From a virus: a DNA stretch of 29,752 nt. The notes under the pieces are model-generated. The model was not told the DNA's origin, ran no database searches, and worked only from the letters and a program-made list of their open reading frames with translations. Position numbers and translations under genes: made by a program. How positions within the stretch are numbered: position 1 is the stretch's first letter; the number at the start of each line of letters is the position of its first letter. Positions 6,123 through 29,411 of this stretch are shown one piece after another. The stretch is from IMG/VR virus record IMGVR_UViG_3300009285_000849, positions 1-29,752 of that record, one strand, 5' to 3'.

Positions 6123-6778
6123 CTACGCTGACCCCGCATCTTGATTATCTCCGTGGCCGTGTTCTTGAAGGTTTGGACAGCTAGGTCTACAGATGCCTGA
6201 TAATCCCGGTTTAATTGGCCTAGTTTTATGGCTACTTCGGGGGTTATGTCGATCCCTTTCATGAGCAGATAGGCCGCGTAATTGGCTATGCCCATGTGGA
6301 ACTGAACCATCAGAGTAGAACTGTTCAGCGGGACATCGGAATCTCCTGACATCTCGGCCGGGACCGGGTAGTAGGTCAGTATGAGATTCGCCCCAGCATC
6401 ATTCGCGCCTGGGATGGGGTAGAGCCTAATCTGCTTTCTTCCTTCCTCCGGGTCAATCATGAACTTCTTTGGAGTGCCAGCATCATCGGTCCAGTCATCC
6501 CCATTGTCGAATTGGAGAGTGCGCCTCGATACTGGATTAAGCTCGATTCCCTTGTGGGTTACTTGCTTCTCCATCCAGAAATCGGTAGGTAGATCGTATG
6601 CGGCCGTGCCATCCACAACGGTATAGGTTGACGCATCTTTGAATAGAGCCTTGGAATCGTAAGCGAACTGTTCCTGTGCCCGGTTTATGGCATCGTTATA
6701 TTGCGTAACTGTGAACTTGCTTATGCTCGGATCTCCGCAGAAACCGGCCACGAGAGTCTGTATCTGTCCTCTATTCAT
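6113..6778 (-). CDS. Head-tail adaptor protein (SU10-adaptor-like)
   Basis: 221 residues. The pattern matches phage adaptor proteins that sit under the portal and receive the tail: an N-terminal helical region (YNDAINRAQEQFAYDS), then a strand motif TVVDGTAAYDLPTDFW, a central beta segment with RKQIRLYPIP and LTYYPVPAEM, and a C-terminal helical region (LGQLNRDYQASVDLAV). Length and motif order agree with the adaptor of SU10-like podoviruses and its relatives. It lies immediately before the tail protein, which starts inside its last codons. Its own start overlaps the last codon and stop of the glycosyltransferase gene at 6775, so translation is likely coupled. The head-tail role is well supported; the SU10 kinship is a by-eye judgement. 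Confidence 0.8.
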   Translation of the reverse strand: MNRGQIQTLVAGFCGDPSISKFTVTQYNDAINRAQEQFAYDSKALFKDASTYTVVDGTAAYDLPTDFWMEKQVTHKGIELNPVSRRTLQFDNGDDWTDDAGTPKKFMIDPEEGRKQIRLYPIPGANDAGANLILTYYPVPAEMSGDSDVPLNSSTLMVQFHMGIANYAAYLLMKGIDITPEVAIKLGQLNRDYQASVDLAVQTFKNTATEIIKMRGQRRWF

Positions 6779-7980
6779 TGGACGAGCTCCGTTTTCTTTT
6801 CAGAGAATGGGTCCCAGTCCGGGGATACCGGATCGAGAGGCTTCACATCATCGTCTATAGATAAGGACGATACCGAAGGCGGTTTCTTTGTTGCTCCCCT
6901 CTTGATTGCTTCCTCAAGACAGGCGACATAAGTCTTAGTCACTGTATCCACATGGAAGTCAGATGCCACGCGGCCATAGGCCGCTTTCCCGATATGCCTA
7001 CGCAATCGCCTATCTCTGATCAGCGTGTCCAGGTGATTCTCGAACTCGGCTGCATCATCGGCCAAGAGCCCGTCAATGCCATGCTTTACAGTCTGCTTGA
7101 AGTGGCCGACATTGGAAGCCACGGTCGGTATTCCCAGGGCAGAATATTCCAGCCAGCGCAGATTTGATTTTCCACGATTGAAGGCATTGTCCACCAGTGG
7201 AGCCATGCCGATATCAAAAGCCCTATCCGCCAGATATTGCGGGTAGTGGTCTATCCTTGCCCATTTCGTTATGAACTCTACCCGTTCCAGATTCCTCAAG
7301 AATGGGGGCACTCCATGGCACAATACGAAAGTGACATCCTTATGCTTGGCTAGGATGTTTTTTATTACCGGCTCGATGATACGCAAGTCCTCCTCGTGGC
7401 TGGAACCTCCGGCCCATCCGATCCTGATACCGGGCTTTGATTTCCTCTGTGTCCTATCCCACGCGGCCAGGTCGATACCATTCTGAACCACGAAGATATT
7501 ATCGTTAAAATCTGAGTAGACTTCTTTCAGGTATGGAGTGCTGACAATCATGCCATCCATGTTCTTGAATTGCTCAATAGCTACTTGACGATGATGGGTC
7601 CCGGCTGCGTCGTAGACTTCCGAAGCCGGGTTATAGGCCGGAGTGTCCACCATGTTATCGTCTATCTCGGCTAGGAATGGAAGGTCAGGGAATATATCCT
7701 TCAGCGCGTAGAGCGTGCTGAGTGCGGCCTGAATATGAACCATCTGGCAGACCACTACATCGGCTTCCCGGCAGGCATTATAGAAGCCCTTGAATATTGC
7801 CAACTTCGTCATTGGATTGGTTATCTGTTCTTCCCATGGATGAGTAGTCGTCAAATCCTTGCGCCAGGCAATCGGCATCAGATTCGCTATACCCATCCTG
7901 TCTGCGGCCATGGCGTAATTGAGCATCCGGTAGTAGAATACGCCGGAATTGGATGTCTGGATGAATAGGGCCTTCAGCAT
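6775..7980 (-). CDS. GT-B fold glycosyltransferase (GT4-like)
   Basis: 401 residues. It shows the two-domain plan of group 1 glycosyltransferases: an N-terminal acceptor domain (VVVCQMVHIQAALSTLYALK; AEIDDNMVDTPAY), a linker with FVVQNGIDLAAWD, a C-terminal nucleotide-sugar domain opening with IRIGWAGGSSHEEDL, and the conserved motif NLRWLEYSALGIPTVASNVG holding the Glu that contacts the donor ribose. It probably transfers a sugar from a nucleotide-sugar donor; donor and acceptor cannot be read from the sequence. Residues after about 365 form a hydrophilic tail. It overlaps the next glycosyltransferase by seven bases and the adaptor by four, placing it in the late structural operon and suggesting a virion or cell-surface glycan target. 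Confidence 0.85.
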   Translation of the reverse strand: MLKALFIQTSNSGVFYYRMLNYAMAADRMGIANLMPIAWRKDLTTTHPWEEQITNPMTKLAIFKGFYNACREADVVVCQMVHIQAALSTLYALKDIFPDLPFLAEIDDNMVDTPAYNPASEVYDAAGTHHRQVAIEQFKNMDGMIVSTPYLKEVYSDFNDNIFVVQNGIDLAAWDRTQRKSKPGIRIGWAGGSSHEEDLRIIEPVIKNILAKHKDVTFVLCHGVPPFLRNLERVEFITKWARIDHYPQYLADRAFDIGMAPLVDNAFNRGKSNLRWLEYSALGIPTVASNVGHFKQTVKHGIDGLLADDAAEFENHLDTLIRDRRLRRHIGKAAYGRVASDFHVDTVTKTYVACLEEAIKRGATKKPPSVSSLSIDDDVKPLDPVSPDWDPFSEKKTELVQ

Positions 7981-8684
7981 GGGGCTCCTATCAACACATT
8001 CATGGAATGCAATATGGCCTCTTTCTCTTTCTTGACCTCTGACTCATTCCGATTGCTCACCGTCCCGGAATTGAGGATTCGATAGGAAGAGAGGAACTGA
8101 GGCATGGCGCAAAGATTCACACCGTCATGGGCTGCCCGAATCTGTTGATCCCAATCCTCGACTCCGAGTTTGCATATGTTCCCCAGAGAATATGGGTATC
8201 TCTTGGCGAAGTCCTTCGTATAGGATACGGTGCTATGGATTATTCCGTTCGCCATCGAGATCATGGCTTCCTTGAGGACGAATGGAGCGGAACGGACCTC
8301 GCTTACTACCGATCCATCCGGCTCGATAAGCCTGCCTGATCCATAGGCGAACTGAACACCGCCGCTATGGAATTTGTCGGCCACATACTGAGCCCGCTTC
8401 GGCTCGGACAGGTCGTCGGCATCAAGGACGCATATCACATCACCGGATGCAGCATCGTTCCCGGAATTTCGAGAGAAAGACCGCCCCTGCTTGGTCGGAT
8501 TGGTAAGTATCCTCACCCTGGCGTCCTGCTTGATGAAGTCCAGGTATTGCTTTGTCAGGTCGGTGGAACCGTCATCGACTATGACCACTTCGATATCATT
8601 ATGCGTCTGCTCAAGGCATGACTTAACGGCATGGGGAAGCCAGGTGGAGCAGTTGTGACTCGGGATGACGAAGGATATCTTCAT
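7974..8684 (-). CDS. GT-A fold family 2 glycosyltransferase
   Basis: 236 residues, about the size of a single GT2 catalytic domain. Recognisable motifs in order: MKISFVIPSHNCSTWL at the start, VVIVDDGSTD (residues about 33-42), SRNSGNDAASGDVICVLDADD (the DxD metal/nucleotide-sugar site) and GVEDWDQQIR, equivalent to the ED catalytic-base motif. All key acidic residues are present, so it should be active. Donor sugar is unknown. It overlaps the neighbouring glycosyltransferase genes by seven and four bases. Nothing truncated was seen. Confidence 0.9.
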   Translation of the reverse strand: MKISFVIPSHNCSTWLPHAVKSCLEQTHNDIEVVIVDDGSTDLTKQYLDFIKQDARVRILTNPTKQGRSFSRNSGNDAASGDVICVLDADDLSEPKRAQYVADKFHSGGVQFAYGSGRLIEPDGSVVSEVRSAPFVLKEAMISMANGIIHSTVSYTKDFAKRYPYSLGNICKLGVEDWDQQIRAAHDGVNLCAMPQFLSSYRILNSGTVSNRNESEVKKEKEAILHSMNVLIGAPC

Positions 8685-10147
8685 GCCACGGCCTCCATCA
8701 ATCTCTCCGGCGATAGGAGCTTCTTGTAGTAGCCACGACCCGAGTCATTGGCCTTGTTCTTGTCGATTATTGTCCGAACTCGTTTGACCACCGATTCAAT
8801 GAATTGGCCCTTGTCCTGCGTGTCATCGACATAGCCGCAGAATGGTTGCTGGATGTTCGATATCACATGCCGCCCATTGATCAGAGCCGTCTTGATATTG
8901 GCTGATATGGTTCGGTCTGGGAATAGGTGGATGATGCCGTGATAGTCCGATACCGAGGCTCCCGATCCCACCACATCCATCTCCACATCCGGCAAGCTAT
9001 TGTCTATCACCACCATGAGCCGTCCGTACTGGGCCTCTATGTCTACCAAGAACCTCGGCTTGCCAGGGAGCGGGGACTCGTTTGGTATCTCCAACGGAAT
9101 AGGCAGAACCTCGACATTGAATCCGGCCCTACGCATCATGTCATACGCTTTCTTGTCCTCGACATACTGCGTTGCCACCTCGTTCAAACTGGCCGAGTAG
9201 GCACAGACCGCATCGAAATTGATGGACCTGTACACATCCAGGATATTGTCGGAAGTGAAGAACACAATTCTCTTCCTGACCGTATCGTTATTCATGGCCG
9301 AGAACGCTTCCGAGTGTCTGTCTACGAATTGACGGAGAGGGCTGAACCCAAGCTGGACAAGGACCTCGTACTTATGGGGCTTGAAGTTTGGATAGTCCCG
9401 GTAGTCCGCTCCGATGAGTTTTGCAAGACGGATACCATCCTCTTTGTATTGTACCGATGAAACACAGACTCGGTTATCCGGTATTCCGTGCTTCTTCTTT
9501 ACCGCATCCATTCGTAAAAGCCATGCGCTGGGCAAACATCCTTTTCCGCTGATGCTGTTCGGATTGGGGTACTCCGTGGCGAAGGCATAGCCCTTGAAGA
9601 ATGCCCCTTTGCCCCCCTTCTCAACGATGCTGAGCCAGAAGTCCCAATCCTGTAGGGATTCAAGGGATTCATCCCAGCCCGGAAACAACTTTGACCGGAA
9701 TGGGAAGCAAGCTGAAATGTAGTTGTTTACCCGCAGTAGCCACGGATCGAACGGCTCAGATGCTATCGCCCCTTTCTCATCGAGGAACCGATAGCCGGAG
9801 TAGATGAAATCTGTTTCCTGATGCTTGTCTAACTGTTCTACCCACATCTGCGCCGTCCCCGGCTCGATGATGCAGTCGGAGTCCCAGAATACCCAATACT
9901 CTCCGGTGGCCTGCTTGGCGCCCTCGTTCCTGGCCCTACAGGCCCCCCCATGTTGTATCTCTACAACCTTTGGAGTGACCGCATGACCACGGAATGAATC
10001 CATGATGATGTCAACAGCCCCGGCCGATGGACCGTCAAGCACGAATATGGCCTCGAACTCCTTGAGGCTCTGCTCTGCCAATGCCTTGCAGGCTCTGCCC
10101 AGGATATGCTCAGTCCGGTAGACTGGGATTATGAAAGACAGTTTCAC
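8681..10147 (-). CDS. Two-domain glycosyltransferase: GT2 domain plus GT-B-like domain
   Basis: 488 residues. Residues 1 to about 225 are a GT2 domain: LSFIIPVYRTEHILGRACKA, IFVLDGPSAG, ACRARNEGAKQATGEYWVFWDSD with its DxD site, and SLQDWDFWLSIVEKGG as the catalytic-base region. Residues about 230-470 are a separate domain that resembles half or all of a GT-B enzyme (RIVFFTSDNILDVYRSINFD, then MDVVGSGASVSDYHGIIHLF and SANIKTALINGRHVISN). The second part looks degenerate because a clear E-x7-E motif is missing. A bifunctional enzyme adding two sugars, or a GT2 enzyme with an acceptor-binding domain, are both possible. Four-base overlaps tie it to both neighbours. Confidence 0.8.
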   Translation of the reverse strand: MKLSFIIPVYRTEHILGRACKALAEQSLKEFEAIFVLDGPSAGAVDIIMDSFRGHAVTPKVVEIQHGGACRARNEGAKQATGEYWVFWDSDCIIEPGTAQMWVEQLDKHQETDFIYSGYRFLDEKGAIASEPFDPWLLRVNNYISACFPFRSKLFPGWDESLESLQDWDFWLSIVEKGGKGAFFKGYAFATEYPNPNSISGKGCLPSAWLLRMDAVKKKHGIPDNRVCVSSVQYKEDGIRLAKLIGADYRDYPNFKPHKYEVLVQLGFSPLRQFVDRHSEAFSAMNNDTVRKRIVFFTSDNILDVYRSINFDAVCAYSASLNEVATQYVEDKKAYDMMRRAGFNVEVLPIPLEIPNESPLPGKPRFLVDIEAQYGRLMVVIDNSLPDVEMDVVGSGASVSDYHGIIHLFPDRTISANIKTALINGRHVISNIQQPFCGYVDDTQDKGQFIESVVKRVRTIIDKNKANDSGRGYYKKLLSPERLMEAVA

Positions 10148-10953
10148 GCTCTCACCGCCTCTTCAGGTATAGGCCCCATCTCGAAGCCTTTTGGATATTC
10201 AGCCGGAATAAACTTGAAGCCCATGCCGTCCTTGAAAGTAACTCTCGGATGGGTCGAAGCAATCCTGTCTATGCCTTCACTGGAATAACCCTGATGCTCA
10301 AGGCATGTCCTCATTCTTCCCAGCCTTCTCGCCAGTGGTCGGACATCGGAGAAATGGAGGATTTTTATCCCGCTATTCTCCACCGGGTAGGGGTACTTTC
10401 CAAAGTCTTGTCCATAGTGCTCGTGCTTCTCCCCGGTTATCTCTCGGAAGTAGATATCCTCTTCCGATGATCCGTACCATCCGAAGTAATGAGCCCCCAG
10501 GTCCGGATTCCTCAGACGAAAGATGTTCTTCCATTTTTCTCCGCGCCCATGTCCTATTCTGTAGAGCTCGCCCCCAGGCTCACCGGCATATGAATCCATA
10601 TCGGCAGTCATGGCGATGGCTTCTGAATCCTTTACCTTCAATATCCGCTCTGGATTCGATATCCACATGTCCGGATGAAGGAACACGGCCAAGTCGGTAT
10701 CCAATGAGTGTAGGCAATCATCGAACAAGAGCACATAGTCATCCTTCAAGTCCTTCTCGCGCTTGTTCTCGAACAGCTTTATCTTCGATCCGTTCAGATC
10801 CCCTGCCTGGATGGCCTTTATGGTTTCCAGCGTTCCATCCGTTGACCCACTATCGAAGAATACCATCTGGTCCATGAACGGAAGCACTCGCAGGATATGG
10901 GAACGAATCCACATTATCTCGTCCCGAATCAACGTGAATGTCCCGATACTCAT
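10144..10953 (-). CDS. GT2-like glycosyltransferase (RDE / DSGSTDGT type)
   Basis: 269 residues. The N-terminus reads TLIRDEIMWIRSHILRVLPF, then MVFFDSGSTDGTLETI, the hallmark opening of GT2-type enzymes with an Arg-Asp-Glu start motif. AVFLHPDMWISNPERI replaces the usual DxD region; the spacing fits but the motif is not canonical (HPD). Later, FRLRNPDLGAHYFGWYGSSEEDIYFRE fits an acceptor-site region. The C-terminal about 60 residues are basic. It overlaps both flanking genes by four bases. Activity is likely but the altered DxD site makes the donor choice uncertain. Confidence 0.75.
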   Translation of the reverse strand: MSIGTFTLIRDEIMWIRSHILRVLPFMDQMVFFDSGSTDGTLETIKAIQAGDLNGSKIKLFENKREKDLKDDYVLLFDDCLHSLDTDLAVFLHPDMWISNPERILKVKDSEAIAMTADMDSYAGEPGGELYRIGHGRGEKWKNIFRLRNPDLGAHYFGWYGSSEEDIYFREITGEKHEHYGQDFGKYPYPVENSGIKILHFSDVRPLARRLGRMRTCLEHQGYSSEGIDRIASTHPRVTFKDGMGFKFIPAEYPKGFEMGPIPEEAVRA

Positions 10954-11696
10954 GCTGATCCCACCAATTCAGCATAAGCTCTCTTGGCGTCATCTGGCCT
11001 GTAGGACTCTGCTTTAACCGCCACGCACGGAACAGGTATTGATTTCGTGTTCTTGTCCAGGCCATGCTTATCATGGAATCTGTCCCAGTAGTCACCTATC
11101 GGATTCATGTCCGACGGGTACTTCCCATAATACTGTTCCGGCTTGTTGTGGCCTACCAGGATATCCACCACGGCACATCGGCTTCTAAGGCAGAAATCCA
11201 GGTCGTAGAAGAATAGCCCGTCGAACTGCTCATCGAATAGTATCTTTATGAAGTGTTCCCGAGTCATGGCCATGAGCATCCCGTCCACCACTCGAACGGG
11301 GCCGGATTTCGGATTCAACGACTTGACATGCTTCTTCCCGTCGATTAAAGTAACCCATTTCCCCACTGCCCCTTCCGGGAAGCTGCCCATGAATTTACCG
11401 CCGTTATATTTCTCCATTCCGACGACTCCAACGACATCTACCCCGTCGGATAGGGCCTCGATTATTACGCTATCCCATCCGGGGCTAAGGAACTCGATAT
11501 CGTCATGGGAGAACACAAGGATGTCGGCCTTGGACGACTTGCCCAGTCGGTTGTAGGTTTTTGCTATCCGGGGTTGCCCATCGTCGTATTCATATTTAAA
11601 GCCTGGTGCATCAACCATGAATGTCGATAGGGCGCTATCCATCATGCGCTGATGCAGGTCCTTGTATCTTACCCGGGTGACTATGTCTATGCTCAT
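10950..11696 (-). CDS. Glycosyltransferase of the StrF-like GT2 group
   Basis: 248 residues. Its motifs match the GT2 branch exemplified by the StrF-type domain: IAKTYNRLGKSSKADILVFSHDDIEFLSPGWD (the HDD site), VVGMEKYNGGKF, VRVVDGMLMAMTREHF and FDGLFFYDLDFCLRSRC, where the acidic pair closes the active site. The C-terminus (IGDYWDRFHDKHGLD) is helical. These enzymes typically act on surface polysaccharide or protein glycans. It overlaps the methyltransferase upstream and the glycosyltransferase downstream by four bases each. The family call is good; the substrate is unknown. Confidence 0.8.
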   Translation of the reverse strand: MSIDIVTRVRYKDLHQRMMDSALSTFMVDAPGFKYEYDDGQPRIAKTYNRLGKSSKADILVFSHDDIEFLSPGWDSVIIEALSDGVDVVGVVGMEKYNGGKFMGSFPEGAVGKWVTLIDGKKHVKSLNPKSGPVRVVDGMLMAMTREHFIKILFDEQFDGLFFYDLDFCLRSRCAVVDILVGHNKPEQYYGKYPSDMNPIGDYWDRFHDKHGLDKNTKSIPVPCVAVKAESYRPDDAKRAYAELVGSA

Positions 11697-12235
11697 TTCA
11701 CCGCCACCACATTGAGACTTACCGATTTCAAATCTCCAGTAGAGACATTCCTTGAACAGTCGTGTTCATCTCCCACTGGGAAATTATCCACCCGACTCGC
11801 TTCCGAGAATCCGGCCTCATGTAGGAGTTTCGACAGACGATCAAAATCGAATCCGGCCATATGATAGGCCGTGGGGTATTCCTGTCCACCCCATAGATAG
11901 TCCACCAGCCATTCATTCATGCGTCCGATATTCAGATATATTTCAATGCTTCGAGCGAAGTCGGGAACAGCGACATAAAGTATCCCGCCAGGCTTCAACA
12001 CCCTGACCCATTCTTTCAGAACAGAGAGGGTCCTGACATGGGGGAAATGCTCAAGGCAATGGGAAGCGTATATCTCGGACACTGAGCAATCGGCATACCT
12101 AGACAGGTCGGAGATATCGGCTATCACATCGGCCCCGGAGGCTTCGTCAATATCAACGCTCAAGAATCCAGGAATAGAGCGTGTCCTTGCTCCTAGGTTC
12201 AGGCGTATCTCGTCAACAACGATATCCGTAATCAT
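11693..12235 (-). CDS. SAM-dependent methyltransferase of the glycosylation island
   Basis: 180 residues, a compact class I methyltransferase. IRLNLGARTRSIPGFLSVDID is a motif I SAM-binding segment with the acidic residue at the end of strand 2. ADISDLSRYADCSVSEIYASHCLEHFPH is the next segment, and LKEWVRVLKPGGILYVAVPDF is the post-motif LKPGG signature. The HEHF/LEHF style resembles the methyltransferases that modify sugars in capsule or O-antigen clusters. In this setting, directly upstream of five glycosyltransferases, methylation of a glycan is the best guess, though a DNA or protein target cannot be excluded. Four-base overlaps on both sides. Confidence 0.85.
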   Translation of the reverse strand: MITDIVVDEIRLNLGARTRSIPGFLSVDIDEASGADVIADISDLSRYADCSVSEIYASHCLEHFPHVRTLSVLKEWVRVLKPGGILYVAVPDFARSIEIYLNIGRMNEWLVDYLWGGQEYPTAYHMAGFDFDRLSKLLHEAGFSEASRVDNFPVGDEHDCSRNVSTGDLKSVSLNVVAVK

Positions 12236-20372: not shown

Positions 20373-20712
20373 CTATCTCCTGATCGGTTATGTTCGACTC
20401 GTCCGGTCCTTTGGACACCCTGATCCTCTCGACGGGTTTACCCTCGGATGTATCCCGAAATATCTCAGTAGATTTTGAGTCTCCTTTTCGAGCCTTGCGG
20501 ATAAGAGCCTCTGCTATCAATTCGAGATTTGTCTTTCCGGTGTCGGGGTCTATTTCACCGGCCAAACGCTTGAGAACTTGGGATAGCGTTGTAGTGCCTT
20601 TGGGTCGACCATGACCGACAGCAAATTTATTTCCAGGCTGGAAAAGGTACGGAGGATTTTTCTTTCCTTCCAATTCGGTTTTTTTTTGGTTTGTAAACGA
20701 TTCCGCTTCCAC
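20284..20712 (-). CDS. terS: Terminase small subunit-like DNA-binding protein
   Basis: About 142 residues from a GTG at 20712. A GTG five codons further upstream lies inside the promoter spacer and cannot be on the transcript. The expected transcription start is about 20712, so the mRNA would be nearly leaderless; an in-frame TTG further in is the alternative. FQPGNKFAVGHGRPKGTTTLSQVLKRLAG resembles the DUF5681 N-terminal motif (GN...GRPKG) found next to terminase large genes. The rest is charged and helical (ELIAEALIRKARKGDSKSTEIFRD), and the C-terminal about 20 residues are Pro/Gly/Ala-rich. It should recognise phage DNA for packaging. Confidence 0.7.
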   Translation of the reverse strand: MEAESFTNQKKTELEGKKNPPYLFQPGNKFAVGHGRPKGTTTLSQVLKRLAGEIDPDTGKTNLELIAEALIRKARKGDSKSTEIFRDTSEGKPVERIRVSKGPDESNITDQEIDAEIKRLANGTGEGENPAPPGPAALPGAE

Positions 20713-20803: not shown

Positions 20804-21307
20804 TCAGAACTCCGGCTGCTCGGGCTGGTTGGCGTTGGATGCCTTGACGATATCTGCGAGGACTTCGCGGGCCACGCCGCCGATCTTGTATTTCCGTGGT
20901 CGACCGGAGAGCGCCCATGATCCATCGGGTTGCACCTCGACGCCGAGGGAGAGAGAGCGCTCGACATCGGCCAGGATATCACGGTGGATTTCGGGTGTAA
21001 ACTCGGGGACATTGGACAGGACCTTGAGTCCGGCGATTGGTTTCCCACACCCGCCGCATATCTTGGCTGTCGCTATAACCCCTTGGGATTTAGCCGATTT
21101 CCAAAGCAGGATTTCTCCGAGCCAACAGACAGCGGCGCAGCACTGAGAGCGCATCTTGCGCTCGGATGCTGGCAGGAGCTCCCATCGTTCGGGGCAGGGG
21201 ATTTCCCATAGCATTTTTGAGTCGTGAGAAGTGCGTCGGGACCATATTACCTCGCGTGTATCGTCGCTGGAATCACGCAAACGATGTGCGAAGGTCTTGT
21301 CGCTCAT
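20804..21307 (-). CDS. Putative zinc-binding protein of the replication operon
   Basis: 167 residues from the ATG at 21307, which overlaps the helicase-loader stop as ATGA and has GGAGG eight bases upstream; an ATG 16 codons further up is possible but less well placed. CGGCGKPIAGLKVLS at about residues 84-98 is a CxxC half of a zinc ribbon, and a second Cys cluster (SQCCAAVC) lies about 25 residues before. The C-terminal half (LSLGVEVQPDGSWALSGRPRKYKIGG) is beta-rich. Earlier, KMLWEIPCPERWELLPASERKMRSQ is hydrophobic and charged. A DNA- or protein-binding part in replication is likely from its neighbours. No family recognised. Confidence 0.65.
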   Translation of the reverse strand: MSDKTFAHRLRDSSDDTREVIWSRRTSHDSKMLWEIPCPERWELLPASERKMRSQCCAAVCWLGEILLWKSAKSQGVIATAKICGGCGKPIAGLKVLSNVPEFTPEIHRDILADVERSLSLGVEVQPDGSWALSGRPRKYKIGGVAREVLADIVKASNANQPEQPEF

Positions 21308-22044
21308 TTCTTTACCCTCCAATCCTGTTGTCCGACCAGGGAAATTATTTTGCACATTTGCGCGAGTCTGGACGGGATCCGGTCGCTCCCCAATTTTTCG
21401 GTTAATTGGTTGAGATCCAGGTTACTGGTTATGACGAGTCCGTTACGCATATCCATGTATCTACCGTCAATGATGCGGTATATCAGGGACGCCAGAAATT
21501 CCGTCATTTTCTCGGTCCCGATATCGTCGATGACCAACAATCTAGCCTCTTGCAGGCTCTCTATGCGACTCGCCTCTTGGTTTGCATCCGCCGAACAGCG
21601 GATAAACTCTGATATGGTCTGGGGCTTAAGCACCTCGGGAACATATTTTTTTTGAGTCCTGGCCGCGATGGTGGCCAAATGAGTTTTTCCTGTGCCTGTA
21701 GGACCGAAGATGTATAGATTTTCCTTGTCTGGGTCGAACTCAACGGCTGAATGATGGGCGTACTCCAATGCTGGGCATCTACGGACGAATTTCTCTTTGG
21801 TGAAGCAGTGATATGCCTTCTTCCCCCCCAGGGACTTAACGGCCTTTTCCAGTTTATCCTCCTGCCCTATTTTTTTTAGGCGGGCCGCTTCAAGTACCTT
21901 TTCTTGTTCATCGGAGCAATGATCGCATCCGTCGGGTCCAATCGGATACTCGCAGACCGGGCACCACTTCTTAGCCTCGGAATGCGTCGAATTTTCCTGG
22001 GGTAGGAGCCGAGTATCCTGCGTGCTTGTTGGTTGTTGTTCCAT
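21304..22044 (-). CDS. DnaC-like AAA+ helicase loader
   Basis: 246 residues. An N-terminal zinc finger (Cys28, Cys31, Cys40, Cys43: CPVCEYPIGPDGCDHC) precedes an AAA+ domain. Walker A is IFGPTGTGKTH (about 112-122), Walker B is LLVIDDIGTEK (about 169-179), sensor 1 is VITSNLD (about 204-210) and the arginine-finger region is GSDRIPSRL (about 219-227). This is the usual plan of DnaC/DnaI-type loaders that put replicative helicase on DNA. Phage versions recruit the host helicase; no helicase gene is in this window. It follows the replisome-organiser gene with a 74-base overlap and precedes the zinc protein with a four-base overlap. Confidence 0.9.
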   Translation of the reverse strand: MEQQPTSTQDTRLLPQENSTHSEAKKWCPVCEYPIGPDGCDHCSDEQEKVLEAARLKKIGQEDKLEKAVKSLGGKKAYHCFTKEKFVRRCPALEYAHHSAVEFDPDKENLYIFGPTGTGKTHLATIAARTQKKYVPEVLKPQTISEFIRCSADANQEASRIESLQEARLLVIDDIGTEKMTEFLASLIYRIIDGRYMDMRNGLVITSNLDLNQLTEKLGSDRIPSRLAQMCKIISLVGQQDWRVKK

Positions 22045-22660
22045 TTTGATTTTTCTCCCAGGTCCTGACGGCGGCTCGCCAGTCCCTCATCTTATTTTTC
22101 CCGACTCGCCAGCCGTTGGACTGGTAGTAGTCGTAGAATTTCTCCGGGTCGAGTCCTTTCCCGCGCTCTTGGCAGTAGGTGCGTATGTCCTCGATTTTTG
22201 GGGGGATATCTTTATCTGTTGGTATAGGCTTAGTAAGGATAGGTAAGGTACGGCAAGGAGGAGTCTCTAAGGAATGCTCAAGGAGTGCTGAAGGATGCAT
22301 CTTATTACGCTTTAATTTACTCCATCTTTTCGCATTGGCCCTGATAGACCGGACCCTAAAAGCATGTAGATGACCCTGGTGTTCCAAAAACTTGTGAATC
22401 GAAATGTTTTTGTCTTGTCGGTCAAGGAAGCCGATGCGCTCTAGTGCCGCGAAACATACGCCACGCTCCCCATCCCATCCAATCAGGTGCTCTATCTCCA
22501 AAGGCTCGATATTGCGGAAGATCCCAGACTCGGGACACGATTTCGCCGCGATAGCCCATAACCGGATTGGGAAAATTGATGCTTGCGGGCCGAGCGCGAA
22601 TTCTAGCCTCTTGGTTTTTTCGTGATCGAAATAATTTGGGTCGAGATTTAGGTAGGGCAT
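21971..22660 (-). CDS. Replisome organiser / replication initiation protein
   Basis: 229 residues from the ATG at 22660; a TTG at 22726 is possible but lies in the structured leader. The N-terminus, YLNLDPNYFDHEKTKRLEFALGPQASIFPIRLWAIAAKSCPESGIF, has the pattern of the winged-helix N-terminal domain of phage replisome organisers. A linker with basic residues (RANAKRWSKLKRNK) follows, and the C-terminal DPEKFYDYYQSNGWRVGKNKMRDWRAAVRTWEKNQ resembles the DnaD-like helicase-recruiting helix motif. It is followed by the DnaC-like loader, the classic initiator plus loader pair. It likely binds the phage origin, which I cannot locate. The family call is by pattern. Confidence 0.8.
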   Translation of the reverse strand: MPYLNLDPNYFDHEKTKRLEFALGPQASIFPIRLWAIAAKSCPESGIFRNIEPLEIEHLIGWDGERGVCFAALERIGFLDRQDKNISIHKFLEHQGHLHAFRVRSIRANAKRWSKLKRNKMHPSALLEHSLETPPCRTLPILTKPIPTDKDIPPKIEDIRTYCQERGKGLDPEKFYDYYQSNGWRVGKNKMRDWRAAVRTWEKNQNGTTTNKHAGYSAPTPGKFDAFRG

Positions 22661-22761: not shown

Positions 22762-22790
22762 AGTATAACCCCGGCGACTGCGGATGTCAA
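22762..22790 (-). promoter_or_regulatory. Leftward sigma-70 promoter of the replication operon
   Basis: On the minus strand TTGACA (22790-22785), a 17-base spacer and TATACT (22767-22762). It drives the replisome-organiser, helicase-loader and zinc-protein genes. Transcription should start near 22755-22757, exactly at the first arm of the leader stem. Confidence 0.85.
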
Positions 22791-25412: not shown

Positions 25413-25585
25413 TGGACTGCTGGACCTGCAAGTATCAGCAAGTCGGAGGCTCGTCCTTCCTCGGGCTCTGTACTTTCTTCAAGGTCCACCGGGCGCAAGA
25501 GCCGAAGGAAATACCGATGACGCTTGTTGATGTCGGGTGCAAGTTCTTCGAGCAGAGAAAACAGGATGAAGAAAAAAAGGCTTGA
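25412..25585 (+). CDS. Small Cys-rich protein
   Basis: 57 residues, coupled to the previous gene by TAATG. Cysteines in CWTCKY, GLCTFFK and GCKFFE suit one zinc or an iron-sulfur site. The last 15 residues are Lys/Gln/Glu-rich. Its stop codon TGA lies inside the -35 box of the next promoter, so translation and the RNA gene that follows share bases. Function unknown. Confidence 0.65.
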   Translation: MDCWTCKYQQVGGSSFLGLCTFFKVHRAQEPKEIPMTLVDVGCKFFEQRKQDEEKKA

Positions 25586-25611
25586 CAATACCGGGATAGC
25601 TCTGGTAGACT
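25582..25611 (+). promoter_or_regulatory. Sigma-70 promoter of structured RNA 1, with A-rich upstream tract
   Basis: TTGACA (25582-25587), an 18-base spacer and TAGACT (25606-25611). GAAAAAAA directly upstream (25571-25578) resembles an UP element. The expected start is about 25618, at the first arm of the RNA. Confidence 0.7.
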
Positions 25612-25617
25612 TGGATC

Positions 25618-26040
25618 ATGCGTGGCGAGCAACAATCCAAGTCGTTTATCGCTTCGGGGTCCCTCAACGACTTGGTTGCGCGCCACGCTCCAAACCTGAG
25701 AGGGACCCCTTGCTTTATGCGCGTTCAGACCGTCGCGCAACCAAAAACCGGAAGACAGGTCCGGCCTACCGCGTGGCAGGAAATGGCGCTGATCTTGCAC
25801 CAGGGCATACGAGCATCCCTGGATGCGCTCCCCGAATACCCCGGCTCTGTGGTGACAACAACCGGGAATATGGGCGTGATGCGAAAGCATCTATCCGTGG
25901 CAAGGCTCACTTACTCAATCTCAGAGTAGGCAGAGGACAAGGGCACGGACGGAAGGAGCCTTCGGAGATTCAATCCGTTCTCTCGGGTAATACGCCCAAG
26001 GGAATGGTCAGGGATTAGATAGTCCGCTAGAGCGGAAGGA
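25618..26040 (+). ncRNA. Candidate structured RNA 1 (pseudoknotted, about 420 nt), or long leader of the RecT operon
   Basis: The stretch starts at its promoter and shows dense base pairing. The 5' end GCGTGGCG (25620-25627) pairs with CGCCACGC (25681-25688). Inside, CCAAGTCG (25637-25644) pairs with CGACTTGG (25668-25675). The loop of that helix contains GGGGTCCCTC (25656-25665), which pairs with GAGGGACCCC (25700-25709) outside the first helix: a pseudoknot. Further hairpins include TGCGCG/CGCGCA (about 25718-25739) and GATGC-GAAA-GCATC (25878-25891). The RecT gene starts at 26051 with its own ribosome site, so this may be a leader. An ATG at 25618 opens 103 codons; the product looks unlike a protein and its codons coincide with the helices. 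Confidence 0.6.
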
Positions 26041-26050
26041 GACTGAAAAA

Positions 26051-26974
26051 ATGGGAGAAGACAAGGCCGTATCGACGGAGGTCAGGCCGGAGAAGCCGAA
26101 GAACAACGGAGTGGCTTTGACGGGCGTGGGATTTCGGAGCCTAGTCCCGAAAGACTTCTCGGAGGCCGAGCACATCGCCATGGTCCTGGCTAAATCGGAC
26201 ATAGTGCCCAAGGAGTTCGTCGGGAAACCGGCGAACATCCTGCTGGCGATCATGTACGGAAACGAGATCGGCCTGGCTCCGGCCCAGGCGTTGCAGAACA
26301 TCATGGTGGTCAACGGCAGGCCGTCCATGTGGGGCGATGCGGTCCTGGGGAAGGTCAAGGCGTCCAGCGTCTACGAGGCCAGCCGGGACTCGTTCGACGA
26401 GAAGACCATGACGGCGACATTCTCGGTTAAGCGCAAGGGCGAGGACTGGCTCACTCGGACATTCTCGCAGGCCGACGCGGTGAAGGCAAACCTGTGGGGG
26501 AAGGCGGGGCCGTGGCAGGGATACCCGAAGCGGATGCTGTTCAACCGGGCGCGGGCCTGGGCGCTGCGGGATGCTTTCCCCGATGTTCTCAAGGGTCTGC
26601 GGATCGCGGAGGAGGAGCAGGACATCATCGAGGTCGTGCCCGTGACCGGCCAAGCGGACCAATTCGCCATGCCGACACCGAGGGCCGAGACTCAGACGGA
26701 GCAATCCAAGCCCGAGGAAACGGAGCAGGATCCGGCCCAAGCGCCAACCGACGGACCCAAGACCGTCCAGGGCGTCATCGAGAAGATGACGAAGTACGAC
26801 GGCGGTGCCTATCTCTACATCGACGGGGCGAAGTTCTACTCGGCAGACGAGTCCATCATCCACGCCGGTAGACTCGCCAAGGAGCAGGGGCGAAAGGTCG
26901 AAATCGCCTACGAGGATACCAAGGACGGTCATGTCATCTCGGAGGTCCGTCTGCTGGATCAGGAAAAGCCGTAG
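26051..26974 (+). CDS. RecT-like single-strand annealing protein with extra C-terminal domain
   Basis: 307 residues; ATG at 26051 with AAGGAG nine bases upstream. The N-terminal about 185 residues carry the RecT-family signature: AMVLAKSDIVPKEFVGKPANILLAIMYGNEIGLAPAQALQNIMVVNGRPSMWGDAVLGKVKAS, then RTFSQADAVKANLWGKAGPWQGYPKRMLFNRARAWALRDAFPDVLKGL. An acidic Pro/Glu-rich linker (about 200-240) leads to a small beta-rich C-terminal domain (VQGVIEKMTKYDGGAYLYIDGAKFYSADESII) that resembles an OB-like fold. It anneals complementary single strands during recombination with the exonuclease downstream. The RecT part is firm; the domain at the end is described, not identified. Confidence 0.85.
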   Translation: MGEDKAVSTEVRPEKPKNNGVALTGVGFRSLVPKDFSEAEHIAMVLAKSDIVPKEFVGKPANILLAIMYGNEIGLAPAQALQNIMVVNGRPSMWGDAVLGKVKASSVYEASRDSFDEKTMTATFSVKRKGEDWLTRTFSQADAVKANLWGKAGPWQGYPKRMLFNRARAWALRDAFPDVLKGLRIAEEEQDIIEVVPVTGQADQFAMPTPRAETQTEQSKPEETEQDPAQAPTDGPKTVQGVIEKMTKYDGGAYLYIDGAKFYSADESIIHAGRLAKEQGRKVEIAYEDTKDGHVISEVRLLDQEKP

Positions 26975-27022
26975 CCGCTGGACGCCCGCAGGGGGCCGGG
27001 TTATGTCCCCATAATTCTAATT

Positions 27023-27214
27023 ATGAAAAAGAAAACAAAGAAAGGGAAAGATATAACCAGCATGAATTCCCTAGCCGAATTGCTCCTGCATGGTGATTGG
27101 GTCTATTTGCGCGATAAACCTCTGCATCCATCAATAATCATGAACATGACTATGGCTACTGTAACTGGATTTGTTCTTAGAGGATTTATACGAGAATGCG
27201 AGCCATCGAAATAA
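27023..27214 (+). CDS. Small hypothetical protein in the recombination module
   Basis: 63 residues; ATG at 27023. No strong ribosome site is visible before it. The N-terminus is Lys-rich (MKKKTKKGKDI) and the rest is hydrophobic-polar (LAELLLHGDWVYLRDKPLHPS; NMTMATVTGFVLRGFIREC). The DNA is AT-richer than the surrounding genes. It overlaps the exonuclease gene by 19 bases. No family recognised. Confidence 0.55.
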   Translation: MKKKTKKGKDITSMNSLAELLLHGDWVYLRDKPLHPSIIMNMTMATVTGFVLRGFIRECEPSK

Positions 27215-27846
27215 AGAACCCGCAGGGCTTCACCTTCGACCCGGTTGGTCACATTTACCGAGTGGGGACTGTGGTGCGGCCGGGCATCAATGCGGTCCTG
27301 GAATCAGTAGGGCTAAGGCCATCGCTGAAGATGATTTCTCCGGAGGTCCTTGAGTTTGCACGAGGCCGGGGTCAGGCAATTCACGCCGTCTGCGAATTGT
27401 TCGACCGTGGACACCTAGGGAATTACGAGATCGACGACCGGACATTGCCATACCTGGAAGCCTGGAAGCTATTTCGCCAGGAGTGGAGCTTCGAGCCCGA
27501 GATAATCGAAACGCCCATGGCTCATCCTGTCTACCAATTCGCGGGTACGCCAGATCGGGCCGGGACAATCGAGGGGAAACCGTCAGTCGTCGAGATCAAG
27601 ACGGTGTCAGGAGATCCGATAAGGCCCGCCGATTGGGTAGGCTTGCAGCTCGCGGCCCAGGAAATGTTACTTTACGGATGCGCGGGATACGAAGTTTATA
27701 ATCGGATAGCCGTGTGCCTGGGCTCGAACGGGAAGTATGTCGCCCGGGAGTACACCGACTATACCGATAAGCAGTTATTTCTCGGCGCGGTCGGAATCGT
27801 AGGATGGAAGAACAATCACTATCGGGGGGAAAATGGAAGCCACTAG
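27196..27846 (+). CDS. PD-(D/E)XK exonuclease, RecT partner
   Basis: 216 residues; ATG at 27196 overlaps the end of the previous gene. Motifs in order: RGRGQAIHAVCELF (His63 helix), QFAGTPDRAG with Asp120, VVEIKTVSG with Glu133 and Lys135 (the D-ExK active site), and DWVGLQLAAQEML with Gln151. These are the marks of the PD-(D/E)XK exonuclease group (Cas4/YqaJ/lambda-exo relatives). It would chew one strand so that the RecT-like protein can bind and anneal. It is encoded two genes after RecT. The next gene starts 14 bases before its end. Confidence 0.8.
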   Translation: MRAIEIKNPQGFTFDPVGHIYRVGTVVRPGINAVLESVGLRPSLKMISPEVLEFARGRGQAIHAVCELFDRGHLGNYEIDDRTLPYLEAWKLFRQEWSFEPEIIETPMAHPVYQFAGTPDRAGTIEGKPSVVEIKTVSGDPIRPADWVGLQLAAQEMLLYGCAGYEVYNRIAVCLGSNGKYVAREYTDYTDKQLFLGAVGIVGWKNNHYRGENGSH

Positions 27847-28465
27847 CGAAGTCGGATTCTCGGACAAGATGCGCCGGGCTGTCGCACTCGCCAATGAAGT
27901 CAAGGCCCTGGTCATCAAGACGCCGCAGGACTACGCCCTGGCCGGAGAGAAGGAGGACGCCATCCGTGTACTTGAAAAGGAGCTTGAGATCGAGTATAAG
28001 GCGCATCCGGCCATAGTCGAAGCTAAGATTCTCCAAATCCAGAAGGGAGACATGGCCGACATCCTCAAGGGAGCGAGGATCGGGGTCAAGGCCAAGCGCA
28101 TCGCCTACGACGAAGCAGATGAGCGCAAGCGCCTGGAGGAACAGCGACGGCTCCAAGCGGAAGCGCAGAGGAAGGCCGACGAGGACGCGCTCAAGGCCGC
28201 TCTCGCCGCCGAGAAATCCGGCGACAAGAAATCCGCCGAGGCCATCATCCAGCAAGAGGTCATAGTCCCCACGGTCATCATCCCGAAGGACACCACGAAG
28301 GCGGGAGCGCCTGTCCGTGTGGTATGGTCCGCCGAGGTGCTTAACGAGAGCCTGATCCCGAGGAGATTCTTGATGAGCGACATGGTCAAGCTAAACGCGC
28401 AGGCCCGCATCGACAAGGAGAACACCGATATCCCCGGAGTCCGTGCCGTGTCGAGAAAGGTCTAA
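27833..28465 (+). CDS. Coiled-coil phage protein associated with the RecT/exonuclease module
   Basis: 210 residues. The first about 95 residues are helical (EVKALVIKTPQDYALAGEKEDAIRVLEKELEIEYKAHPAIVEAK). A long charged coiled coil follows (DEADERKRLEEQRRLQAEAQRKADEDALKAALAAE). The end has RVVWSAEVLNESLIPRRFLMSDMVKLNAQARIDKENTDIPGVRAVSRKV, which matches the C-terminal pattern of a phage protein family often encoded beside RecT and exonuclease genes. Function of that family is unknown to me; a scaffold for the recombinase is possible. Overlaps the exonuclease gene by 14 bases. Confidence 0.75.
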   Translation: MEATSEVGFSDKMRRAVALANEVKALVIKTPQDYALAGEKEDAIRVLEKELEIEYKAHPAIVEAKILQIQKGDMADILKGARIGVKAKRIAYDEADERKRLEEQRRLQAEAQRKADEDALKAALAAEKSGDKKSAEAIIQQEVIVPTVIIPKDTTKAGAPVRVVWSAEVLNESLIPRRFLMSDMVKLNAQARIDKENTDIPGVRAVSRKV

Positions 28466-28476
28466 AAAGAAAAGCC

Positions 28477-28505
28477 TTGACTATCGCATGACCGTCTGAT
28501 ATACT
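28477..28505 (+). promoter_or_regulatory. Sigma-70 promoter of structured RNA 2, with A-rich upstream tract
   Basis: TTGACT (28477-28482), a 17-base spacer and TATACT (28500-28505). AAAAAGAAAAG just upstream (28464-28474) resembles an UP element, as at the RNA 1 promoter. The expected start is about 28512, the base before the first arm. Confidence 0.8.
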
Positions 28506-28511
28506 GAGACC

Positions 28512-28910
28512 ATGAGCCCAAGGAGTTTTTTAATTTACGGTCGTCCGTGCCACGGAGGAATCTCCTTGGGCTCACACGGACGGCCCATTCTTTTGTATCT
28601 GGATGGGACGCCGGGTAGGCTCATGACCGACCCGGCCGATTTGAGGTCGCGGCGGCGCAGAAATGCGCTTGGTGATAACCGAGGTGGGGAAACGGGACAG
28701 AGCGAGGGAGTTATGACCCTCGAAGATCGTCCGGCCAGAACCCTCAGAAGCGTGTCATGTGCACCATAGGCCATGACCGCAGGCTGTGGACCCTGCCGCG
28801 ACCTCAAGCCCCCAAGCCCGGGGGTGGACCTGGGTACGGAATGCATATGAGCATTCGTGGCAAATATCGAAATCCCAGGCCGTCCGTGGAATCCTGACCA
28901 CGGACAATTT
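28512..28910 (+). ncRNA. Candidate structured RNA 2 (pseudoknotted, about 400 nt), or long leader of the downstream genes
   Basis: A 13-bp perfect helix (28513-28525 with 28562-28574) starts at the RNA 5' end. Inside its loop GGTCGTCCGTG (28539-28549) pairs with CACGGACGGCC (28575-28585) immediately after the helix, with one G-U: an H-type pseudoknot. Later helices: GCCGGGT/ACCCGGC (28610-28636), a 13-bp perfect long-range helix (28641-28653 with 28795-28807) enclosing GCGCA-GAAA-TGCGC (28655-28668), CTTGGT/ACCGAG (28668-28683) and CGAGGG/CCCTCG (28703-28722). GGGGG/CCCCC (28809-28824) and GAATGC/GCATTC (28839-28856) follow. An ATG at 28512 opens 85 codons, but the product is unlike any known protein. 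The next gene at 28927 has its own ribosome site. Confidence 0.65.
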
Positions 28911-28915
28911 AGGAT
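28882..28915 (+). promoter_or_regulatory. Hairpin before the 28927 gene whose loop can pair with the ribosome-site region
   Basis: GTCCGTGG (28882-28889) pairs perfectly with CCACGGAC (28898-28905). The loop contains ATCCT (28891-28895), complementary to AGGAT (28911-28915) in AGGATAGGAG just before the gene. This forms a small pseudoknot next to the translation start. There is no T-run, so it is not a classic terminator. Confidence 0.5.
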
Positions 28916-28926
28916 AGGAGTAGAAA

Positions 28927-29115
28927 ATGGAAAAGCCCAGAGTAAAATTAGTTGGTCAAGACGGAAATGTCTTTAACCTGCTTGGACTTTGCACAAAGGC
29001 CCTTAAGCGGGTTGGTCAACGACAGCAGGCAGATGAGTTGTCTGCTAAAGTTTTGGATTGCAAAAGTTACAGCCATGCATTGACTTTGATGATGGATTAT
29101 GTGAGGGCCGAATGA
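28927..29115 (+). CDS. Small conserved-type phage protein of unknown function
   Basis: 62 residues; ATG at 28927, AGGAG six bases upstream. RVKLVGQDGNVFNLLGLCTKALKRVGQRQQADEL resembles a widespread small phage/plasmid protein with a VxLVGxDGNxF start, seen by me as hypothetical. The second half is helical (AKVLDCKSYSHALTLMMDYV). AT-richer than most of the window. It is the first gene after structured RNA 2, and the following gene overlaps its stop. Confidence 0.75.
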   Translation: MEKPRVKLVGQDGNVFNLLGLCTKALKRVGQRQQADELSAKVLDCKSYSHALTLMMDYVRAE

Positions 29116-29411
29116 AAGACCTGGACAAGGCGTGGAAGAAGTATCTAAAGCTCATCTCTCAGGGCGACGCGCTCTACTTTCAGGGCGACGTGCTCCGCTC
29201 TCAGGGCAACGCGCTCTACTCTCAGGGCGACGCGCTCACCTCTCAGGGCAACGCGCTCACCTCTCAGGGCGACGCGCTCCGCTCTCAAGGCGACGCGCTC
29301 TACTCTCAGGGCGTCGCGCTCTGGAAAAAAGCAATAGCCCCCCTCACCTGCGAGTGGAAAGCGTGGGACCATTGCGTCCTGAGCGATGGGAGGGAGTTCA
29401 AGGCAAAATGA
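29112..29411 (+). CDS. Heptad-repeat protein (QGDALxS)
   Basis: 99 residues; ATG at 29112 overlaps the previous stop (ATGA). After an 11-residue charged start (KDLDKAWKKYL), eight 7-residue repeats (SQGDALY and variants) fill residues about 16-71, then a short charged tail with two cysteines. The 7-residue period with Ala-Leu at fixed positions predicts a long helix or helical bundle. The position after Leu changes among Tyr, Arg, Thr and Trp, which may alter a binding surface. Similar heptad proteins occur in phages without known function. The next gene starts inside its stop. Confidence 0.7.
   Translation: MKDLDKAWKKYLKLISQGDALYFQGDVLRSQGNALYSQGDALTSQGNALTSQGDALRSQGDALYSQGVALWKKAIAPLTCEWKAWDHCVLSDGREFKAK
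29157..29324 (+). repeat. 21-bp tandem repeat, eight units, within a gene
   Basis: Eight 21-bp units begin with TCTCAGGGC and code for SQGDALx. Codon-level similarity between units is high, including third positions, so the array is probably young. Length changes would stay in frame. Confidence 0.9.

Follow-up and report, generated by a model that had tools for sequence, protein, structure and literature searches.

Pseudoknots predicted at the 5' end of transcripts from three early promoters of an uncultured phage

The IMG/VR virus record IMGVR_UViG_3300009285_000849, an uncultured phage whose 29,752 bases are referred to here as the window, contains three early promoters, two rightward and one leftward, that are each followed directly by a predicted pseudoknot at the 5' end of the transcript. 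The three copies, designated RNA1, RNA2 and copy 3, precede the recT/exonuclease genes, a small-gene operon and the rep/dnaC pair, respectively. A preliminary description of this DNA had recognized two RNAs of the same design; a third one lies on the minus strand (copy 3, 22800-22660). As copy 3 lacks a long body, the common unit is the promoter with its 5' pseudoknot, about 80-100 nucleotides (nt) in length and used three times, and the ~330-nt bodies that follow it in RNA1 and RNA2 are optional.

The RNA1 promoter (25568-25611, plus strand) comprised an A-rich tract (25568-25578), GGCTTGACA, a -35 box TTGACA (25582-25587), an 18-nt spacer and a -10 box TAGACT (25606-25611), and the RNA2 promoter (28464-28505, plus strand) an A-rich tract (28464-28473), GCCTTGACT, a -35 box TTGACT (28477-28482), a 17-nt spacer and a -10 box TATACT (28500-28505). 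Both modules opened with an ATG at the predicted +1 (25618 and 28512), 7 nt past the -10 box. In the RNA1 module (25618-25709, plus strand), the first helix, P1, was formed by 25620-25633/25675-25688 and 25637-25646/25666-25675, and the second, P2, paired the loop with a strand outside it (25656-25665/25700-25709), with TCCA at 25689-25692. In the RNA2 module (28512-28585, plus strand), P1 and P2 occupied 28513-28525/28562-28574 and 28539-28549/28575-28585. Folded alone, the P1 helices reached -36.1 kcal/mol in RNA1 (z -5.4) and -33.6 kcal/mol in RNA2 (z -5.9), and the P2 arms -21.5 and -19.8 kcal/mol, respectively. The next start codon followed the predicted +1 by 433 nt in RNA1 (26051) and 415 nt in RNA2 (28927). 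The promoter elements, the position of the AUG, the loop paired outside its helix and the exact spacing to the next gene were thus all as first described.

Copy 3 was recovered when both strands of the window were scanned with a descriptor whose thresholds were fixed beforehand (a sigma-70-like promoter, a helix of at least 8 base pairs (bp) beginning at most 14 nt from the -10 box, and a loop that pairs over 6 bp or more at most 40 nt downstream). Exactly three sites were returned, namely RNA1, RNA2 and minus-strand position 22762, and the same three loci ranked highest in a promoter-independent scan. The copy 3 promoter (22800-22762, minus strand) comprised an A-tract (22800-22794), GCTTGACA, a -35 box (22790-22785), a 17-nt spacer and a -10 box TATACT (22767-22762). 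Its pseudoknot module (22757-22669, minus strand) combined a 13-bp P1 (22757-22745/22702-22690) and a 12-bp P2 (22724-22713/22680-22669), with a GTG at the predicted +1 (22755, the seventh base past the -10 box) and TCCA at 22689-22686. Only 95 nt separated the predicted transcript start from the rep start codon, and the Shine-Dalgarno sequence of rep, GGAGG (22675-22671), lay inside the 3' arm of P2.

The pairing strength of these sites was compared with that in 4.17 Mb from other loci of phages and prophages, a set picked mostly by RecT, terminase or DNA patterns that does not represent random phage DNA. Among strong promoters (at least 10/12), a min(P1,P2) score of at least 22, which the weakest copy in the window attains, was reached by three of the nine in the window and by one of the 492 in the controls, the latter being an AT-rich repeat. 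The contrast is strong, yet it yields no exact probability, because the controls are non-random and the threshold was picked after the scores had been seen. Shuffles of the 120 nt that follow the -10 boxes of RNA1 and RNA2 attained this level in 10 of 6000 trials.

The three copies had the promoter type in common (A-tract, GSCTTGAC and -10 box), and their modules differed in how much sequence they shared. The alignment of the RNA1 and copy 3 modules beat 99% of shuffles, the two having in common GCGTG at their start and CACGCTCCA where P1 ends. At the sixth P1 pair of this alignment, G-C in RNA1 corresponds to A-U in copy 3, so that the difference is compensatory. The RNA2 module could not be aligned to that of RNA1, 46% of shuffles scoring as well. 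The unrelated sequence named in the preliminary description is therefore partly wrong, given what RNA1 and copy 3 share; the duplicated and diverged leaders that it proposed as one explanation fit RNA1 and copy 3. A reading of CACGCTCCA as a tRNA acceptor end was dropped, as ARAGORN detected no tRNA in the window and no T-arm was seen. Loop lengths (L1, L2 and L3, where L2 counts the nt between the 5' arm of P2 and the 3' arm of P1, and L3 those after P1) were 9, 0 and 11 in RNA1, 13, 12 and 0 in RNA2, and 20, 10 and 9 in copy 3, indicating a common topology but no common tertiary structure. Of the form said to be shared, the P1/P2 topology thus recurs beyond chance, whereas loop geometry differs and the long body does not belong to the common unit. 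The 5' terminus was paired in all copies, with 2, 1 and 0 free nt from the predicted +1 in RNA1, RNA2 and copy 3, respectively.

Our preferred, though tentative, interpretation is a cis-acting 5'-terminal pseudoknot leader, reused at the three early promoters, that seals the 5' end of the mRNA. With at most 2 free nt at a paired 5' end, 5'-end-dependent decay (by RppH/RNase E, or by RNase J) would be hard to start, and closure of P1 would hide the 5'-terminal AUG/GUG from leaderless initiation; the outcome would be a long-lived early mRNA in which the real genes are translated from their own Shine-Dalgarno sites. In copy 3, where P2 covers the Shine-Dalgarno sequence of rep, the same fold could also repress rep translation, and the bodies of RNA1 and RNA2 would be separate additions. 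Form would be kept without sequence because such a function would need a shape at the 5' end and not particular bases; only short sequences are common to two of the copies, and almost none to the third. With a helix at +1 to +3 common to early transcripts of both directions, action on the polymerase or at the 5' end is more likely than direct control of the next gene; the copies also vary in their distance to that gene and in the contact of P2 with a Shine-Dalgarno sequence, which is clear in copy 3 only. In bacteria, secondary structure at the 5' end blocks the action of both RppH and RNase E, and it can stabilise long downstream RNA, as in Bacillus (PMC3997798). The phage leaders resemble the 5'-terminal stabilising stem-loops of bacterial mRNAs in having a helix 0-2 nt from the 5' end and in the precedence of shape over sequence, but they are pseudoknots and stand at three promoters, and their stabilising role is proposed from sequence. 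Several points weigh against end sealing. A simple hairpin would suffice for protection of a 5' end, so that a P2 of 10-12 bp needs another reason, and the CACGCTCCA common to RNA1 and copy 3 hints at some sequence recognition. Moreover, the transcription starts are predictions, and the collections searched contained no close relatives and therefore offered no covariation.

Because the copies retain shape more than bases, we infer end sealing first and, close behind it, a put-like action, in which the folded 5' RNA would stay on RNA polymerase as a nascent-RNA antiterminator and permit read-through of terminators or pauses in the early operons; taken by itself, this is possible but rather unlikely. 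In phage HK022, put RNAs located 3' of the early promoters bind polymerase and suppress termination, and putL, of ~70 nt, follows PL directly with its first base pair at A3, each early operon having one copy (PMC9378689). The window modules are likewise cis RNAs of ~70-95 nt placed right after divergent early promoters, present more than once per phage and paired from +1 to +3 of the predicted starts onwards, and the GCGTG/CACGCTCCA shared by RNA1 and copy 3 also speaks for such a role. A further parallel comes from an unrelated viral pair (L121 and L124, see below) that retains a near-identical +1 hairpin and a boxA-like element but differs in the remainder of the leader. However, put consists of two successive stem-loops with a triplex, ~70 nt in all, and its copies are similar, whereas here helices of 10-13 bp interleave in a pseudoknot of 74-92 nt, and RNA2 has almost no sequence in common with the others. 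Read-through by put acts via the beta' zinc-binding domain of RNA polymerase. In addition, alignments to the early region of HK022 did not rise above shuffles, and terminator-like sites in the region were not more frequent than by chance (11 found, 8.9 expected).

A control of translation is unlikely, although the start codons argue for it. The 5' NUG would open a leaderless upstream frame, and ribosomes or a bound early protein would open or close P1/P2 and thereby switch the first gene. ATG or GTG stood exactly 7 nt past the -10 box at four of the six plausible window promoters (RNA1, RNA2, copy 3 and the minus-strand promoter 20746-20719), compared with 6.6% of 545 control promoters, in which most other offsets gave ~3%. 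The phage therefore seems to use leaderless starts habitually. The fourth promoter, however, carries its GTG (20712) without a pseudoknot, so that NUG at +1, the opening AUG of the preliminary description included, is not specific to the pseudoknot RNAs and cannot serve as their hallmark. The upstream frames comprised 103 codons in RNA1 (25618-25929, plus strand, from the +1 ATG), 85 in RNA2 and 31 in copy 3 (22755-22660, minus strand, from the +1 GTG), the last ending in a TAA that overlaps the rep ATG (TAATG); in this copy, P2 also covers the rep Shine-Dalgarno sequence. The RNA1 frame also contained an in-frame ATG at 25717, with GAGGG within P2 12 nt upstream. The codon score classified the RNA2 frame as non-coding (-0.22), was borderline for RNA1 and left copy 3 undecided; the 103- and 85-codon frames, which gave no family matches, were not retained as genes. 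A precedent exists in T4, where gp32, a single-stranded DNA-binding protein, acts on a pseudoknot in its own mRNA (PMC3014915), and the first clear gene after RNA1 likewise encodes a single-strand annealing protein behind a 5' leader pseudoknot. Nevertheless, the T4/RB69 gene 32 pseudoknot is small, is separated from the start codon by 67 nt and is followed by an A+U-rich stretch over the ribosome-binding site, whereas P1 and P2 are far larger and a GC-rich body separates P2 from the recT start, 340 nt away. Both recT and the gene after RNA2 carry their own Shine-Dalgarno sequence ~340 nt downstream of P2.

Two observations on start codons stand apart from the pseudoknots. On the minus strand at 20746-20284, the promoter (20746-20719) matched the consensus at 12/12, and the GTG at 20712, exactly 7 nt past its -10 box, probably begins a leaderless small-terminase-like gene heading the structural operon. 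Across the 545 control promoters, drawn from diverse phage and prophage loci, ATG/GTG was enriched about twofold exactly 7-8 nt after the -10 box, which points to leaderless starts being widespread.

A broader reading, which we hold to be doubtful, is that of an early-promoter cassette of an undescribed kind, in which a leaderless start codon is fused to a 5'-terminal pseudoknot maintained by shape alone and acting on the nascent transcript (by read-through, first-ribosome timing or end sealing), and which would have been copied to DNA-metabolism operons and would occur in other phages with other sequences. Early phage messages that begin with structured RNA are known from very few systems, of which HK022 put is the clearest. 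If the reading of the window is correct, neither sequence nor covariance searches would recover its three modules, which resemble each other in shape with almost no constraint on sequence, and a geometric search, for a promoter, a helix at +1 and a loop that pairs downstream, would be called for. The modules would also provide a compact test of leaders acting on polymerase, ribosome or RNase.

The preliminary description had proposed, as its other explanation, a single class of large structured non-coding RNA comprising the whole 415-433 nt of RNA1 and RNA2, which is improbable in view of the bodies. The RNA2 body (28586-28910, plus strand), non-coding by codon score, was strongly structured (z -4.6 to -5.3), with a long helix at 28641-28653/28795-28807, and the whole RNA2 leader folded far better than shuffles (z -7.5). 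By contrast, the RNA1 body (25710-26042, plus strand), which ends at the recT Shine-Dalgarno sequence (26034-26042), was weakly structured (z -1.5 to -2.2; whole leader, z -2.4). Besides their similar length, the bodies each contained one GAAA-capped 5-bp hairpin (25878-25891 in RNA1 and 28655-28668 in RNA2), as described, and a weak common stretch, ATGC-loop-GCAT followed by CGTGGCAA. Their local alignment was equalled by 2.7% of shuffles, which leaves homology of the two bodies unproven; furthermore, the third copy is bodyless, geometries differ, and no homologues were found. The RNA2 body resembles the large ornate RNAs GOLLD, ROOL and OLE as a long structured non-coding stretch, but the phage RNA is shorter, has no Rfam match and reads directly into a gene, with strong structure in one copy. 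Within RNA2, four mutually complementary strands (28539-28549, 28575-28585, 28878-28888 and 28898-28905) were noted, the last two being competitors of P2 for pairing; this set (28539-28905) has the layout of an RNA switch and stops just 5' of the Shine-Dalgarno sequence of the next gene.

Finally, chance, or inverted repeats acting as DNA operators and not as RNA, is very improbable, for although an extra inverted repeat spans the RNA1 start site (25608-25616/25635-25643) and two of the three pseudoknots were picked out after the fact, copy 3 was found at preset thresholds, the promoter counts differ strongly from the controls, and interleaved repeats cannot all form one cruciform.

Homologues of RNA1 and RNA2 were absent from Rfam, from 50,697 phage records, from ~160 loci, viral and genomic, chosen on the basis of RecT and from 6 chosen by the downstream gene. 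As the RecT-selected loci had only 40-58% RecT identity, the lack of homologues in such distant relatives is neither proof nor refutation of the RNAs. Rfam 15 gave no match at the gathering cut-off and only chance-level matches at E<=10, and DNA and protein searches of phages with RNA1, RNA2 and their frames gave none. Peptide scans with RecT, exonuclease and capsid retrieved no close relative, nor was one found in IMG/VR. The terminase alignment retrieved L096, which is the same phage and offers no useful variation, and L097, which has 57% identity in the terminase and a rep gene that lacks a leader of this type. A comparison of the intergenic gaps upstream of recT in relatives was uninformative, since these gaps were filled by chance open reading frames, as that of the window would be.

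Three pattern scans of other phages, each of which demanded part of the motif, yielded leads rather than relatives; these hint that such leaders are more widely spread. In L122, the two strongest promoters are divergent (1995, minus strand, and 2838, plus strand), with a hairpin starting 8 nt after each -10 box, more pairing downstream and a common AGTAGCG start; the minus-strand leader runs for ~390 nt without a clear gene before a terminator-like site. L121 (1270-1590, minus strand) and L124 (461-760) share the near-identical +1 hairpin followed by boxA-like CGCTCTTTAACA, the remainder of their 250-290 nt leaders being divergent, strongly folded (z -6.9 and -3.6, respectively) and without Rfam match. 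They are candidate nut/put-like antitermination leaders in which the 5' module was kept and the body diverged, and are not shown to be related to the window phage. L120 carried GCGTGGC/GCCACGCTCC and a 7-bp P2 just 5' of an antirepressor-like gene, and L339, L347 and L352, which group together, began with a GCGTGG hairpin. Most of the GCGTG...CACGC helices matched after promoters were chance or coding and were discarded. L138, L161, L226 and L246 were rejected as tRNA-like elements because they sit in a conserved coding frame, while L129 was a true tRNA.

The window contains two leftward gene groups and a rightward early region. The leftward groups are a structural operon, which carries terminase, portal and capsid genes, and a replication pair; the early region holds recT, exonuclease-like genes and a phrog_1933 gene in addition to small genes. 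The replication pair consists of rep (21971-22660, minus strand), directly after copy 3 and encoding a DnaD-like replication initiation protein, and a DnaC-like loader gene that follows it (21304-22044, minus strand). In the early region, the recT-like gene for a single-stranded DNA annealing protein (26051-26974, plus strand) is the first clear gene 3' of RNA1, and the small phrog_1933 protein gene (28927-29115, plus strand; Shine-Dalgarno 28911-28920) follows RNA2. L096 (1-716), an 8.6-kb contig, is identical to the window on one side of a sharp junction at ~22930 and unrelated (tail-gene-like) past it, owing either to recombination or to chimeric assembly; it also has a short deletion in the 20804-21355 gene. 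The structural operon also includes, at 6775-12235 on the minus strand, one methyltransferase-like gene alongside several that are glycosyltransferase-like, and a similar block occurs in Manatee Spring podovirus (MW202743). The gene at 29150-29330 encodes tandem, heptad-like QG(D/N)AL--S repeats (QGDALYS, QGNALTS), whose copy number may be variable.

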